A DNA stretch of 64,000 nucleotides from Acidimicrobiia bacterium. Lineage in GTDB: Bacteria; Actinomycetota; Acidimicrobiia; Acidimicrobiales; Aldehydirespiratoraceae. The notes under the pieces are model-generated. The model was not told the origin of the DNA. It saw only the letters and a program-made list of their open reading frames with translations, and ran no database searches. The stretch spans positions 1-64,000 of the forward strand of contig JAJEEV010000024.1 in the NCBI GenBank assembly GCA_022820805.1, given 5' to 3'. Below, piece after piece: positions 9,624-14,212 of the stretch (positions are counted from its first letter, which is position 1; each line of letters begins with the position of its first letter). A program made the translations under genes and the position numbers.

Positions 9624-9659
9624 ATGACCGTTCGACCTAGAGAGCGTCTCGAGCCGTGA
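9624..9659 (+). CDS. 11-residue leader mini-ORF coupled to the ligase gene
   Basis: An ATG at 9624 lies 7 bases after AAAGGAG, the best ribosome-binding site of the locus, and encodes the basic peptide MTVRPRERLEP. Its TGA (9657-9659) overlaps the GTG (9656) of the ATP-grasp gene as GTGA, so ribosomes ending here could re-initiate on the ligase, which has no good site of its own. It could be a translational coupler or attenuator-type leader. Alternatively the ligase start was misplaced by a small indel. Confidence 0.5.
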   Translation: MTVRPRERLEP

Positions 9660-10339
9660 GGGTCGCGGTCGTCTATAACCGGGACAGCCGCAACGTCATC
9701 AATCTGTTCGGCATGCCGAACCAGGAGATGATCGGCCTCAGGACCATCAAGCGGCTCACCGACGCTCTCCGCGCCGGCGGCCACCGGGTCACCGCGTTCG
9801 AGGCTGACAAGGAGCTGATCTCCAATCTGGAGTCGTTCATGCCCCGCGTCGTGGCCGGAGAGCGGCCGGGCATGGTGTTCAACGTCTCCTACGGCCTCCA
9901 GGGCCAAGCCCGCTACACTCACGTGCCAAGCATCCTGGAGATGGTCGGCATCCCTTACGTGGCGTCGGGGCCCCTGGGGCATTCGCTGGCACTGGACAAG
10001 GTCGTCACCAAGATGATCCTGCGCCAGAACGACATCCCGACGCCGGAGTTCGCGGTGCTCGAGACCCCCGATGTTCCCGTACCGAGTGACCTGCCCTACC
10101 CGATGGTGGTAAAACCCAAGAACGAGGCGGTGTCATTCGGCCTGGCCGTCGTGCATGACGAGGACGAACTGCGCGCGTCGGCCAAGGTGATCTTCGACCG
10201 GTTCTCCCAGCCGGTGCTGGCCGAGCAGTACATCGAGGGTCGCGAGATCAACGTGGGCCTGCTCGGCAACGCTCCGCCCGAAGCCTTCCCGCCGGTGATG
10301 CTGAGCTTCGGTGACGGTCCCCAGATCTACACCTACTAG
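9656..10339 (+). CDS. ATP-grasp (D-Ala-D-Ala-ligase-like) enzyme, N-terminal part before an in-frame TAG
   Basis: The 227-residue frame has the preATP-grasp and central ATP-binding parts of a D-Ala-D-Ala-ligase-like enzyme: MRVAVVYNRDSRNVIN, PSILEMVGIPYVASGPLGHSLALDK, NDIPTPEFAVLE, YPMVVKPKNEAVSFGLAV and VLAEQYIEGREINVGLLGN. It ends at TAG 10337-10339 in a segment reading ...QIYTY-stop-DKTGRSG, where this superfamily usually has YTYEDK. The same frame continues without any other stop to 11803, so this and the next entry are one gene split by a single GAG-to-TAG change. As it stands this half lacks the magnesium-binding loop and cannot be an active ligase. Confidence 0.8.
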   Translation: MRVAVVYNRDSRNVINLFGMPNQEMIGLRTIKRLTDALRAGGHRVTAFEADKELISNLESFMPRVVAGERPGMVFNVSYGLQGQARYTHVPSILEMVGIPYVASGPLGHSLALDKVVTKMILRQNDIPTPEFAVLETPDVPVPSDLPYPMVVKPKNEAVSFGLAVVHDEDELRASAKVIFDRFSQPVLAEQYIEGREINVGLLGNAPPEAFPPVMLSFGDGPQIYTY

Positions 10340-10375
10340 GACAAGACCGGACGCAGCGGACGCCAGATCCAGCCG

Positions 10376-11803
10376 GTGTGCCCCGCCCCCATCTCCGACG
10401 AGCTCACCGCGGAAGCCAAACAGATCGCCATCCGCACGTTCTCGGCGCTGGGGCTGTATGACTGCGCCCGCGTCGACATGCGCATGGACGCCGACAACAA
10501 TCTCTATGTGCTGGAGGCCAACAGCCTGCCCAGCCTGGGAGAGCACGGTTCCTACCTGGTGGGAGCGGCTCACGTGGGCATGGACTTCGCCGCGTTCGTG
10601 AACCGGCTGGTCGAGGTGGCCAGCGCCCGCTACTTCGGGACCCCGCAGCCGCCGATGGTCGATGCTCGCACCGTCGACCCCTCCGAACGAGCCTTCCAGT
10701 ACATAACCCAGCGCCGCGACCAGATGGAGCGATCCCTGCAACGGTGGGTAGAACTCTCCAGCCGCACCGACGAACCGGTAGGGCTGTCACGGGCCGTCGA
10801 ACGAGCCGGGCGCATCCTCACCGAGATAGGCATGCGCCCGGTGCCGGAACTCACTCACGATCCCGAGACCCACATGTGGGAGACGACGAGGGGCATCGCG
10901 GGAGGAGTGCTGCTAGTGGCCCACCTCGATGTGCCGGTCATGCCCGGTTCGGTGCAGCAGAGGTTCCGCCGCGACCCGGAATGGCTCTACGGCGAGGGCA
11001 TCGGTCGATCCCGGGCCGCCCTGGTGATGTTGGAGTACGCCCTGCGAGCCCTCAGAAGCACCAGGAGCCTGCGCCGAATCCCCTTGGGCGTGATGCTCTA
11101 CTGCGACGAGGGTCACGATGCGGCACGCAGCCGGAGACTGATCGAGCAGGCCGCGAGCCGAGTCGACCATGTTCTGGTGTGCCGGCCCGGAACGGTGGCC
11201 CACAGCGTCGTCACCCAGCGGCGCGGCAGCCGGCGCTACGACCTCACCATCGAGGGCGAGCGGCTTAGCCCCGGCCAGGTCGGTCGCCGCAGGCCCGTCG
11301 TGCGCTGGGCCTGCGAGAAGTTGGAGGACATCGGCCAACTGAGCTCGCCACGGCGGCGTCTGTCCATCGGCGTTGTCGACATGCGCACCGAACGGCACGC
11401 CCTGTTCATGCCCCACCGGGTTGAGGTGTCGCTGATGATGTCATACCTCAAACGGGCTCACGCCGACGACGCCGAGGCATCGATGCGCAACGCCCTCGGC
11501 CGCGGACCAAAGTGGACCCTCAACCGGCTCACCGACCGGCCGCCGATGCACGACCTGCCCGGCAACCAGACCCTGGCAGCTGCCCTTGAGGCCGCCGCCG
11601 CCAAATGGGACATCACCCTGGAGAGGGAGTCGTCAGCCTGGCCGTCGGTGGCCGGCCTGGTCCCCGAAGGCACTGCCGTCGTCTGCGGGGTCGGTCCCGC
11701 CATGAGAGACGGCGGAACGCCCGACGAAGCCGTACAACGGATCAGCCTGGTGGAGCGGACACTGCTACTGACCGAATACCTCATCGGCCGGATCGAACGG
11801 TGA
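10376..11803 (+). CDS. C-terminal part of the ATP-grasp gene fused to a degenerate M20 peptidase-like domain
   Basis: In the same frame as the previous entry, GTG 10376 could re-initiate. Residues about 1-75 complete the ATP-grasp fold with the metal-binding segment (ARVDMRMDADNNLYVLEANS, E47 and N49, then GEHGSY). Residues about 140-470 resemble an M20 dipeptidase/deacylase: H183-L-D185 (VAHLDVP), GEGIGRSRAALVMLE and CDEGHD (E245). The Asp expected after the glycine-rich turn is Arg, and the usual EE pair is E-G, so the metal site looks incomplete. The ORF is followed 4 bases later by the gamma-glutamyltransferase gene. I infer a ligase with a binding or proof-reading domain. Confidence 0.75.
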   Translation: MCPAPISDELTAEAKQIAIRTFSALGLYDCARVDMRMDADNNLYVLEANSLPSLGEHGSYLVGAAHVGMDFAAFVNRLVEVASARYFGTPQPPMVDARTVDPSERAFQYITQRRDQMERSLQRWVELSSRTDEPVGLSRAVERAGRILTEIGMRPVPELTHDPETHMWETTRGIAGGVLLVAHLDVPVMPGSVQQRFRRDPEWLYGEGIGRSRAALVMLEYALRALRSTRSLRRIPLGVMLYCDEGHDAARSRRLIEQAASRVDHVLVCRPGTVAHSVVTQRRGSRRYDLTIEGERLSPGQVGRRRPVVRWACEKLEDIGQLSSPRRRLSIGVVDMRTERHALFMPHRVEVSLMMSYLKRAHADDAEASMRNALGRGPKWTLNRLTDRPPMHDLPGNQTLAAALEAAAAKWDITLERESSAWPSVAGLVPEGTAVVCGVGPAMRDGGTPDEAVQRISLVERTLLLTEYLIGRIER

Positions 11804-11807
11804 CCGC

Positions 11808-13502
11808 ATGACCGAAGTCGGCGCAACGCGCCGGTCCTCCGAGCAGGCCCCACACGACCCGCCCCGGCCGCGCCCGCGGCGCCTGCGGGAGGTGGACACC
11901 GACCTGTTGGAGTTGACCGACGCCCGCATCCACGAGCCCCAGCGTGTCGCCGCATCCGCGCACGGCATGGTGAGCACAGCCCACTACTCGGCCACCGCCG
12001 CGGGCGTCAAGATGCTCGAGCAGGGCGGCAACGCCATCGACGCCGCGGTCGCCGCTGCGCTGGCTCTCGGTGTGTGCGAGCCGGCCGCGTCCGGTCTGGG
12101 CGGCCAGACCATGATGCTCGTGCATCACCACGCCTCCGGCACTACCGTCGCCGTCGACGGCTCGTCGCGAGCCCCGAACCGGGCCGTCATCGAGAACTTC
12201 GTCAACCTGCGGGCCGACCGCCGGCGCGGGCATCTTGCCACCACCGTCCCCAGTTCGCCGGCCACCTACGCCCACGTGCTTGAGCGCTACGGCCGTCTGA
12301 GCTGGAGGACCGTGATCGAGCCGGCCATCGTGCTCGCCACCGACGGCTACGAGATCAGCCTGCTGCAGCAGCGACTTACCCGGCGGGAGCGCAAACACCT
12401 GCACTCCCGCCCGGCAGGACCCCTGTTCTTGCAGGACGGACGGCGGGTGCGGCGAGCCGGAACCAGGTTCGTCCAGCCCGTGCTGGCCGCGACTCTGCGC
12501 CGGCTCGCCGATCGCGGCTACGAGGACTTCTACCTGGGCGAGACCGCCAGGTTGATCCATGAGGACATGGAGGCCAACGGCGGCATCCTCCGAGGCGACG
12601 ACCTCGCCCAGATCCCCCACCCGATCGAGCGCGAGCCCCTGGTGGGCCGGTACGGCAGGAACCGGCTGCTCACCATGCCGCTGCCCGGCGCGGGCCGCAC
12701 CCTCGTGGAGATGTTGAACATCCACCGGAGCCTGCCCCGCGAACTCCAAGACATCGACACCCCCGAGGGCGCCGTGTGCCTGGCCCAGACCATCCACCGG
12801 GCACTCATCGACCGCCGGGACCGGCCCTTCGATCCCAACCTGTACTCCCAGGTGTCCGACAAGCAGATGCTGAACCGCCGCTACGCCCACCAGGTGGCCC
12901 GCCAGATCGCCGAGATCCACAGTCCCGGCGAGACCACGCACCTGTCGGTGATGGACTCCGACGGCAACGCGGTGGCGCTCACCCAATCCATCGAGAACGT
13001 CTACGGCTCGTGCGCAGCATCGCCGCAACTCGGCTTCCTCTACAACAACTATATGAGCGCGTTCGACTACCAGGACCCCGCACACCCCTACTACCTGCGG
13101 CCCAACGCCGTTCCCTGGGCCAGCGTGGCCCCCACGATCGTCTTCCGGGACGACACGCCGTGGCTGGCGATCGGCTCGCCCGGCAGCGAGCGGATCCCTC
13201 CCACCGTCCTCCAGGTGCTGCACCGGCTCCAGAAGGACCGTCCCCTGGCTGCGGTCGACGCCCCCCGGATCCACTGCTCGCTCCAGGGCGTAGTCTCCGT
13301 AGAGGCGTCGCGCATCGCCACCGACGTGCTTGCCGCTCTAGAGGGCGCCGGGTTCGAGTTGAACCGCCGCGAGCCCTACTCGTTCTACATGGGATGCGTC
13401 CAGATGGTCATGAGGGAGGGCGGCCGCATGATCGGTGTAGCCGACCCGAGGCGCGACGGCGCGGCCGCCGGCCCGGAGGCGGTGAACACGGAGCCCGTGT
13501 GA
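11808..13502 (+). CDS. ggt: gamma-glutamyltransferase family protein
   Basis: The 564-residue Ntn-hydrolase shows the family order: GMVSTAHYSATAAGVKMLEQ, GGNAIDAAVAAALALGV, EPAASGLGG, then the processing site GE-T376-T-H-LSVMDSDGNAVALTQSIE, where T376 is the expected nucleophile, and SPQLGFLYNN. The family transfers or hydrolyses gamma-glutamyl groups. No signal peptide is visible (the N-terminus is Arg/Pro-rich), so it may act in the cytoplasm, unlike classical periplasmic Ggt. It lies in a tight operon between the ATP-grasp gene and an N-formylglutamate-amidohydrolase-like gene, with a TGATG overlap to the latter. Confidence 0.9.
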   Translation: MTEVGATRRSSEQAPHDPPRPRPRRLREVDTDLLELTDARIHEPQRVAASAHGMVSTAHYSATAAGVKMLEQGGNAIDAAVAAALALGVCEPAASGLGGQTMMLVHHHASGTTVAVDGSSRAPNRAVIENFVNLRADRRRGHLATTVPSSPATYAHVLERYGRLSWRTVIEPAIVLATDGYEISLLQQRLTRRERKHLHSRPAGPLFLQDGRRVRRAGTRFVQPVLAATLRRLADRGYEDFYLGETARLIHEDMEANGGILRGDDLAQIPHPIEREPLVGRYGRNRLLTMPLPGAGRTLVEMLNIHRSLPRELQDIDTPEGAVCLAQTIHRALIDRRDRPFDPNLYSQVSDKQMLNRRYAHQVARQIAEIHSPGETTHLSVMDSDGNAVALTQSIENVYGSCAASPQLGFLYNNYMSAFDYQDPAHPYYLRPNAVPWASVAPTIVFRDDTPWLAIGSPGSERIPPTVLQVLHRLQKDRPLAAVDAPRIHCSLQGVVSVEASRIATDVLAALEGAGFELNRREPYSFYMGCVQMVMREGGRMIGVADPRRDGAAAGPEAVNTEPV

Positions 13503-14212
13503 TGCTGCCACTGCTGGTCTCGGTCCCCCACGCAGGGCTGCGTGTGCCGGCCGAGCTGAAGTCGCGCTGCGCGCTCACGCCCGCCGAGATCGCCGACGAC
13601 GGCGACGGCGGAGCCCGTGAGATCTACGACATCGAAACGGAGGTGGGTGCCTTCGTCACCACCGATGTGGCCCGAGCCATCGTCGACATGAACCGACCCC
13701 GCAGCGACCGCCGACCCGACGGCGCCGTGAAGACCCACACCTGCTGGAATGTGCCGGTCTGGCACCACCCGCTGGCCGTCGAGCAGGCCGACGCCCTCCT
13801 CGACGCCTACCACGCCCCCTACCACCAGCGGCTCACCGAGTCGGGACTCAGCGGAGAGTGGATCCTCGGCGTCGACTGCCACACCATGGCGGCCACGGGC
13901 CCTCCGGTGGGACCGGATCCGGGAACCGAGAGACCCTGGGTGTGCCTGAGCAACGGCGACGGCACCTGCCCCCAGGACTGGATCGAATCGCTAGCAGACT
14001 GCTTCCGGGAACAACTCGAAGGGCCAGTCACCATCAACGACCCCTTCCGCGGCGGCTACATCACCCGCGCCCACTCAGCTGAGATGCCCTGGATCCAGAT
14101 CGAGCTCTCCCGCGCCCCGTTCATGATCAACCAGGACAAACGCCAGGTGGTGCTGGCCGCGCTGCGCCGTTGGGCAAGGACGCATGGGCCACCCAGGACC
14201 ACCCGGTCCTAG
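13502..14212 (+). CDS. N-formylglutamate amidohydrolase family protein
   Basis: The 236-residue protein starts LLVSVPHAGLRVPAEL and shows family landmarks: DGGAREIYDIETEVGAFVTT, IVDMNRPRSDRRPDGAVKT, LGVDCHTMAATGP, FRGGYITRAH and MPWIQIELSRAPFM. The HA, DCHTM and RGG(Y)I segments hold the metal and substrate ligands of the HutG-like family. The start ATG shares its A with the TGA of the upstream gene. No other histidine-degradation gene is nearby, so a role in hydrolysing an N-acyl glutamate or related amide within this cluster is more likely than histidine use. Confidence 0.88.
   Translation: MLPLLVSVPHAGLRVPAELKSRCALTPAEIADDGDGGAREIYDIETEVGAFVTTDVARAIVDMNRPRSDRRPDGAVKTHTCWNVPVWHHPLAVEQADALLDAYHAPYHQRLTESGLSGEWILGVDCHTMAATGPPVGPDPGTERPWVCLSNGDGTCPQDWIESLADCFREQLEGPVTINDPFRGGYITRAHSAEMPWIQIELSRAPFMINQDKRQVVLAALRRWARTHGPPRTTRS

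Follow-up and report, generated by a model that had tools for sequence, protein, structure and literature searches.

A private in-frame TAG at an invariant glutamate codon of a D-Ala-D-Ala-ligase-like/M20-like fusion gene in an Acidimicrobiia-type genome

The interrupted gene and its homologues

The window is the whole stretch of DNA analysed, 64,000 nucleotides of a metagenome-assembled genome (G000; 3.40 Mb in 53 contigs, 94.8% complete) from an uncultured Acidimicrobiia-type bacterium. On its plus strand, the frame from 9656 to 11803 begins with a GTG that aligns with Met1 of homologues, closes with its own TGA terminator at 11801–11803, and contains a single internal TAG at 10337–10339, codon 228 of 715 in the translation of 9656–11806. 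The peptide across the stop reads GPQIYTY-stop-DKTGRSGRQIQP. Two intact genes follow the interrupted one, and the features of the locus are:

9656–10336, plus strand: upstream piece (residues 1–227), the N-terminal and nucleotide-binding part of a D-Ala-D-Ala-ligase-like ATP-grasp domain
10337–10339, plus strand: in-frame TAG at codon 228, Glu in 43/43 homologues
10340–11803, plus strand: downstream piece, the remaining ATP-grasp domain with metal-binding residues (equivalents of D274, E287 and N289), followed by an M20-like domain
11808–13502, plus strand: intact gamma-glutamyltransferase-like (GGT-like) gene, second in the cassette
13499–14212, plus strand: intact N-formylglutamate-amidohydrolase-like (FGase-like) gene, third in the cassette; the coding part of an open reading frame at 12776–14212

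Translation bears out the original prediction of a frame open save for one TAG. Pfam PF07478 is matched at model positions 2–103 before the stop and at 120–204 after it; because these cover different parts of the model, the two halves complement each other within a single domain. The downstream half also matches PF01546 (M20), with a score just under the cut-off. With PF07478 on both sides and the M20-like domain downstream, the locus is, as proposed, an ATP-grasp/M20-like fusion split by the TAG. The proposal that the stop parts the nucleotide-binding from the magnesium-binding half also agrees with Pfam and with the alignment to solved Ddl structures: D274, E287 and N289, the metal-binding residues of Ddl, all lie after the stop. 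The interruption is more than chance, as the sequence on either flank of the TAG at 10337 has a strong coding signal. The ligase gene is single copy in G000 apart from a distant housekeeping Ddl on contig C52 (29% identity); a second intact copy was considered, and none was found in this genome.

Homologues of the ligase come from Acidimicrobiia and Acidimicrobiaceae metagenome-assembled genomes (MAGs; those of the genus are 81–93% identical), Alphaproteobacteria, Phycisphaerae, Eisenbacteria, Planctomycetota and Firmicutes. When the 715-residue frame is aligned to them, codon 228 is Glu in every one of the 43, among them all other genus copies that reach this codon, confirming Glu as the usual residue at this site. 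At the DNA level, the codon is GAG or GAA in every alignable copy, even in genus copies cut short by a contig break. Genus relatives have GAG, none of their copies of the gene has an internal stop, and a search of related genomes for the same base found no relative with TAG at codon 228; the TAG is private to G000. Residues Y225, T226, Y227, E228, D229 and K230 are invariant in an alignment of 31 sequences, in which the window protein leaves family-invariant columns at two places only, the stop and a conservative D373E change. The motif at the stop aligns with the YEHK-type sequences of solved Ddl structures. A split gene as the natural state of the family was rejected, as no homologue is split at codon 228.

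The ligase/M20-like family and its cassette

The family has an ATP-grasp domain with conserved metal-binding residues, which the stop splits in the G000 copy. It resembles Ddl (PF07478, TIGR01205) in its ATP-grasp fold (Foldseek TM-score by target up to 0.81), and it can be aligned with Ddl at the Y-x-Y-E-x-K motif and at the metal-binding D/E/N residues. It differs from Ddl in being only ~25% identical, in its C-terminal M20-like domain, and in coexisting with a separate housekeeping Ddl in G000. Scored separately, the two halves reach 109 and 52 bits in the NCBIfam Ddl model, against a cut-off of 243.

The M20-like domain (10646–11800) shares its fold and detectable sequence similarity with M20 metallopeptidases such as carboxypeptidase G2 (CPG2) and the poly(aspartic acid) hydrolase PahZ2; its structural model (pLDDT 86.8) matches 1cg2 in Foldseek with an E value of 2e-24. 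It departs from them at the metal site. The positions aligned with the CPG2 zinc ligands Asp141 and Glu176 are Arg/Ser and Gly across the ligase/M20-like family. The aligned His is kept in part of the family only and is lost in Firmicutes members, and the family does not carry the M20 zinc-binding His/Asp/Glu/Glu/His set. Judging from these residues, the domain may be a pseudo-enzyme or may work without a dinuclear zinc site.

The cassette of ligase, GGT-like and FGase-like genes is kept in Acidimicrobiia, Alphaproteobacteria, Phycisphaerae and others, as seen by comparing 9656–14212 of the window with loci from several phyla (L032–L078). In Firmicutes the order differs, with the GGT-like gene upstream. 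Our searches of the open literature found nothing on the three-gene cassette, some combined-term searches matching no paper, and found no function for the Ddl-like ligase/M20-like fusion family. The cassette possibly encodes a gamma-glutamyl or amino-acid conjugate pathway that is uncharacterised. Two homologous loci have features of their own. In a Syntrophomonadaceae MAG (L065, 1075–7115), two ligase/M20-like copies flank the GGT-like gene. The homologue of Bacillus sp. S6C1421 (L070, 1867–4012) matches in two frames, an apparent frameshift in a contig of coverage ~6 and another isolated disruption in the family.

Selection on the gene and in-frame stops elsewhere

Selection on the ligase gene was analysed using a two-omega codon model (our own script, F3x4, ten taxa). 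Omega is 0.030 on the window branch, with bounds of ~0.02 and ~0.045 at a drop of 3.84 in 2lnL, and 0.050 elsewhere. Upstream of the stop the values are 0.011 on the window branch versus 0.033 elsewhere; downstream, 0.039 versus 0.058. Thus, in these ten taxa, no relaxed selection is detected on the window branch on either side of the stop, and, the stop apart, purifying selection on the gene is normal along its own branch. Neutral evolution over even a few per cent of that branch would raise the estimate. The stop is therefore either extremely recent or absent from the organism. An old pseudogene is ruled out; a very young null allele would show no relaxation, making a young pseudogene compatible with the result.

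We scanned 1.40 Mb of G000, in stretches amounting to 41% of the genome, for stops flanked on either side by strong coding signal, and judged whether each lies within a gene by comparison with genus relatives. Seven genes have one in-frame stop each:

D-Ala-D-Ala-ligase-like ATP-grasp/M20-like gene, 10337–10339 of the window: Glu to TAG
TadA/CpaF-type ATPase, contig C14: Glu to TAG
MSMEG_0565-family glycosyltransferase, contig C23: mostly Glu in relatives, to TAG
ADP-ribosylglycohydrolase, contig C44: Ser to TAG
Aldehyde dehydrogenase, contig C46: TAG where relatives have Ala, a difference of more than one base
purA, contig C32, 52777–54060 (L220 12777–14060), minus strand: invariant Gly to TGA
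Cytochrome P450, contig C32: Trp to TGA

The implied specialness of the TAG site finds no support, given similar isolated stops in other genes of the same genome. The first 199 kb sampled contained no in-gene stop other than the ligase TAG. Most candidates from the scan, including three of the first four, were gene junctions and were discarded. Most matches of a two-way homology scan for in-gene stops looked, by eye, like antisense frames. The five other interrupted genes that were tested, all but the P450, gave no sign of relaxed selection. The purA gene is single copy in G000 and is uninterrupted in the 14 relatives, of 15, where it was found. Its interruption reflects either a true purine auxotroph or consensus errors. 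The G000 purA also has an R130L change near the in-frame TGA.

Counting purA as single-step on an assumed GGA precursor, six lesions need one step, and five of these are G:C>T:A. The excess is suggestive only, with P ~0.03 under a fitted transition bias and 0.14 without it. Seven stops in 1.40 Mb extrapolate to ~17 in the whole genome, in our judgement a modest pseudogene load. The same scan over 0.8 Mb of two sister MAGs gave one clear candidate by eye, an in-frame TAA in an ABC-permease-like gene on the minus strand of contig C8 of G009 at ~94876 (L270–L276). Isolated stop lesions are thus not peculiar to G000, as a sister genome seems to carry one. The lesion rate does not differ significantly between G000 and the sister MAGs (seven of eight lesions, P 0.15).

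Interpretation of the stop

The TAG falls at an invariant position and is one of several isolated nonsense lesions per Mb of the G000 sequence. We slightly favour a young null allele in an accessory gene over a consensus error, with a probability of about 0.5. One G-to-T change in the strain's ligase gene would have created the TAG. Translation would end at residue 227, so that neither the ligase's metal-binding half nor any of the M20-like domain is made; no ligase would be produced, and the downstream GGT-like and FGase-like genes would stay intact. That the cells truly carry this base and that the truncated protein is inactive are inferences. The stop is private, genus relatives have GAG, the gene shows no decay, and its cassette is accessory: the ligase is missing from 4 of 15 genus genomes and the same four have no orthologous GGT. 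Against a null allele stands the interruption of single-copy purA in the same genome; unless purines are scavenged, a true null in that gene is difficult to believe. The proportion of G:C>T:A changes would also fit a damage or error spectrum. The gene resembles nonsense-type bacterial pseudogenes in its one private premature stop, in the intact orthologues of relatives, and in that no read-through machinery was found in the genome. It differs from them in showing no other decay, and hence is not separable from a consensus error by the assembled sequence alone.

It is quite possible, at somewhat less than even odds, that the base is wrong, through a metagenome consensus error or a minority strain variant that entered the consensus, and that the population's gene is intact. 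The interrupted purA, the normal constraint on the five other genes tested and the G:C>T:A changes in five of six single-step lesions are all in keeping with this. So is the behaviour of the assemblies: contigs of other genus MAGs end inside the ligase gene, three of them at residues 220–240 (G006, G010 and G003; L074, L077, L130 and L131), and breaks at or near codon 228 indicate that mixed samples make this stretch difficult to assemble. Genus copies are identical over stretches of ~42–98 bases through codon 228, which could explain forks in the assembly graph; the contig ends at residues 220–240 are probably due to such long exact stretches common to co-occurring species. However, if all seven stops were errors, and with ~2.4% of random coding changes being nonsense, the error rate would be ~2e-4 per base, which is high for a consensus. 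Private variants at 10351 and 10360 also stand 14 and 23 bases downstream of the T, which was therefore not taken from the relatives examined; a consensus error or a strain variant stays compatible with this. Because of these variants, a cross-species assembly chimera, which the contig ends at or near codon 228 brought into consideration, is not favoured. Of the three explanations originally offered, the recent pseudogene and the wrong base survive, with no decay in the codon model; read-through is unsupported.

That the ligase is now two genes, with an internal GTG restart and polypeptides that cooperate or an M20-like domain acting alone, is highly improbable: a 475-codon open reading frame does start with GTG at 10376, but the break falls inside the ATP-grasp domain at an invariant residue, no homologue is divided there, and one base is the sole difference.

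We also consider it very unlikely that the TAG is read through or reassigned and the 715-residue protein made. Constraint on the frame past the stop is complete, and the same lack of relaxation is seen in several genes with in-frame stops, but a recent origin of the stop accounts for the constraint equally well. No CUA anticodon was found among 44 tRNA genes (Rfam RF00005 places, ARAGORN), a search for suppressor-type tRNA patterns was negative, and no gene for PylS, the pyrrolysyl-tRNA synthetase, was found in the genome sequence; at 94.8% completeness, the lack of both is strong but not absolute evidence. TAG terminates 292 of 978 coding open reading frames (~30%) in the 1.40 Mb scanned and is an ordinary terminator in G000. 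The in-gene stops comprise both TAG and TGA and take the place of Glu, Ser, Ala, Gly or Trp, and therefore no single decoding rule fits. The locus is like pyrrolysine and other TAG recoding in having an in-frame TAG inside a conserved gene; it is unlike them in the lack of PylS and a CUA tRNA, the common use of TAG as terminator, and its absence at this codon in relatives. Pyrrolysine, a suppressor tRNA and TAG reassignment were rejected on the first three of these grounds. No more credible is a lineage that tolerates in-frame stops (TAG, perhaps TGA) by general low-level read-through, with several conserved genes, including purA, expressed at full length.

A lone in-frame stop at a catalytic-looking residue in a MAG is thus no evidence of recoding, because at least seven such stops occur in 41% of the same sequence, one of them in single-copy purA. 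Such stops are ordinary background, either young nonsense alleles or consensus errors. Of more interest than the stop are the ligase family and its conserved three-gene cassette, which make the better subject.

Selenocysteine is irrelevant to TAG and was set aside on that ground, though TGA appears to be so used in G000. Signs of this lie at L152 ~16357 and 4765, L141 15487, and G000 contig C44 78189: UGSC-family and WAxxUGC ResA-like proteins with in-frame TGA and NCBIfam matches, a candidate AhpD-like CxxU protein, and an apparent beginning of selB.
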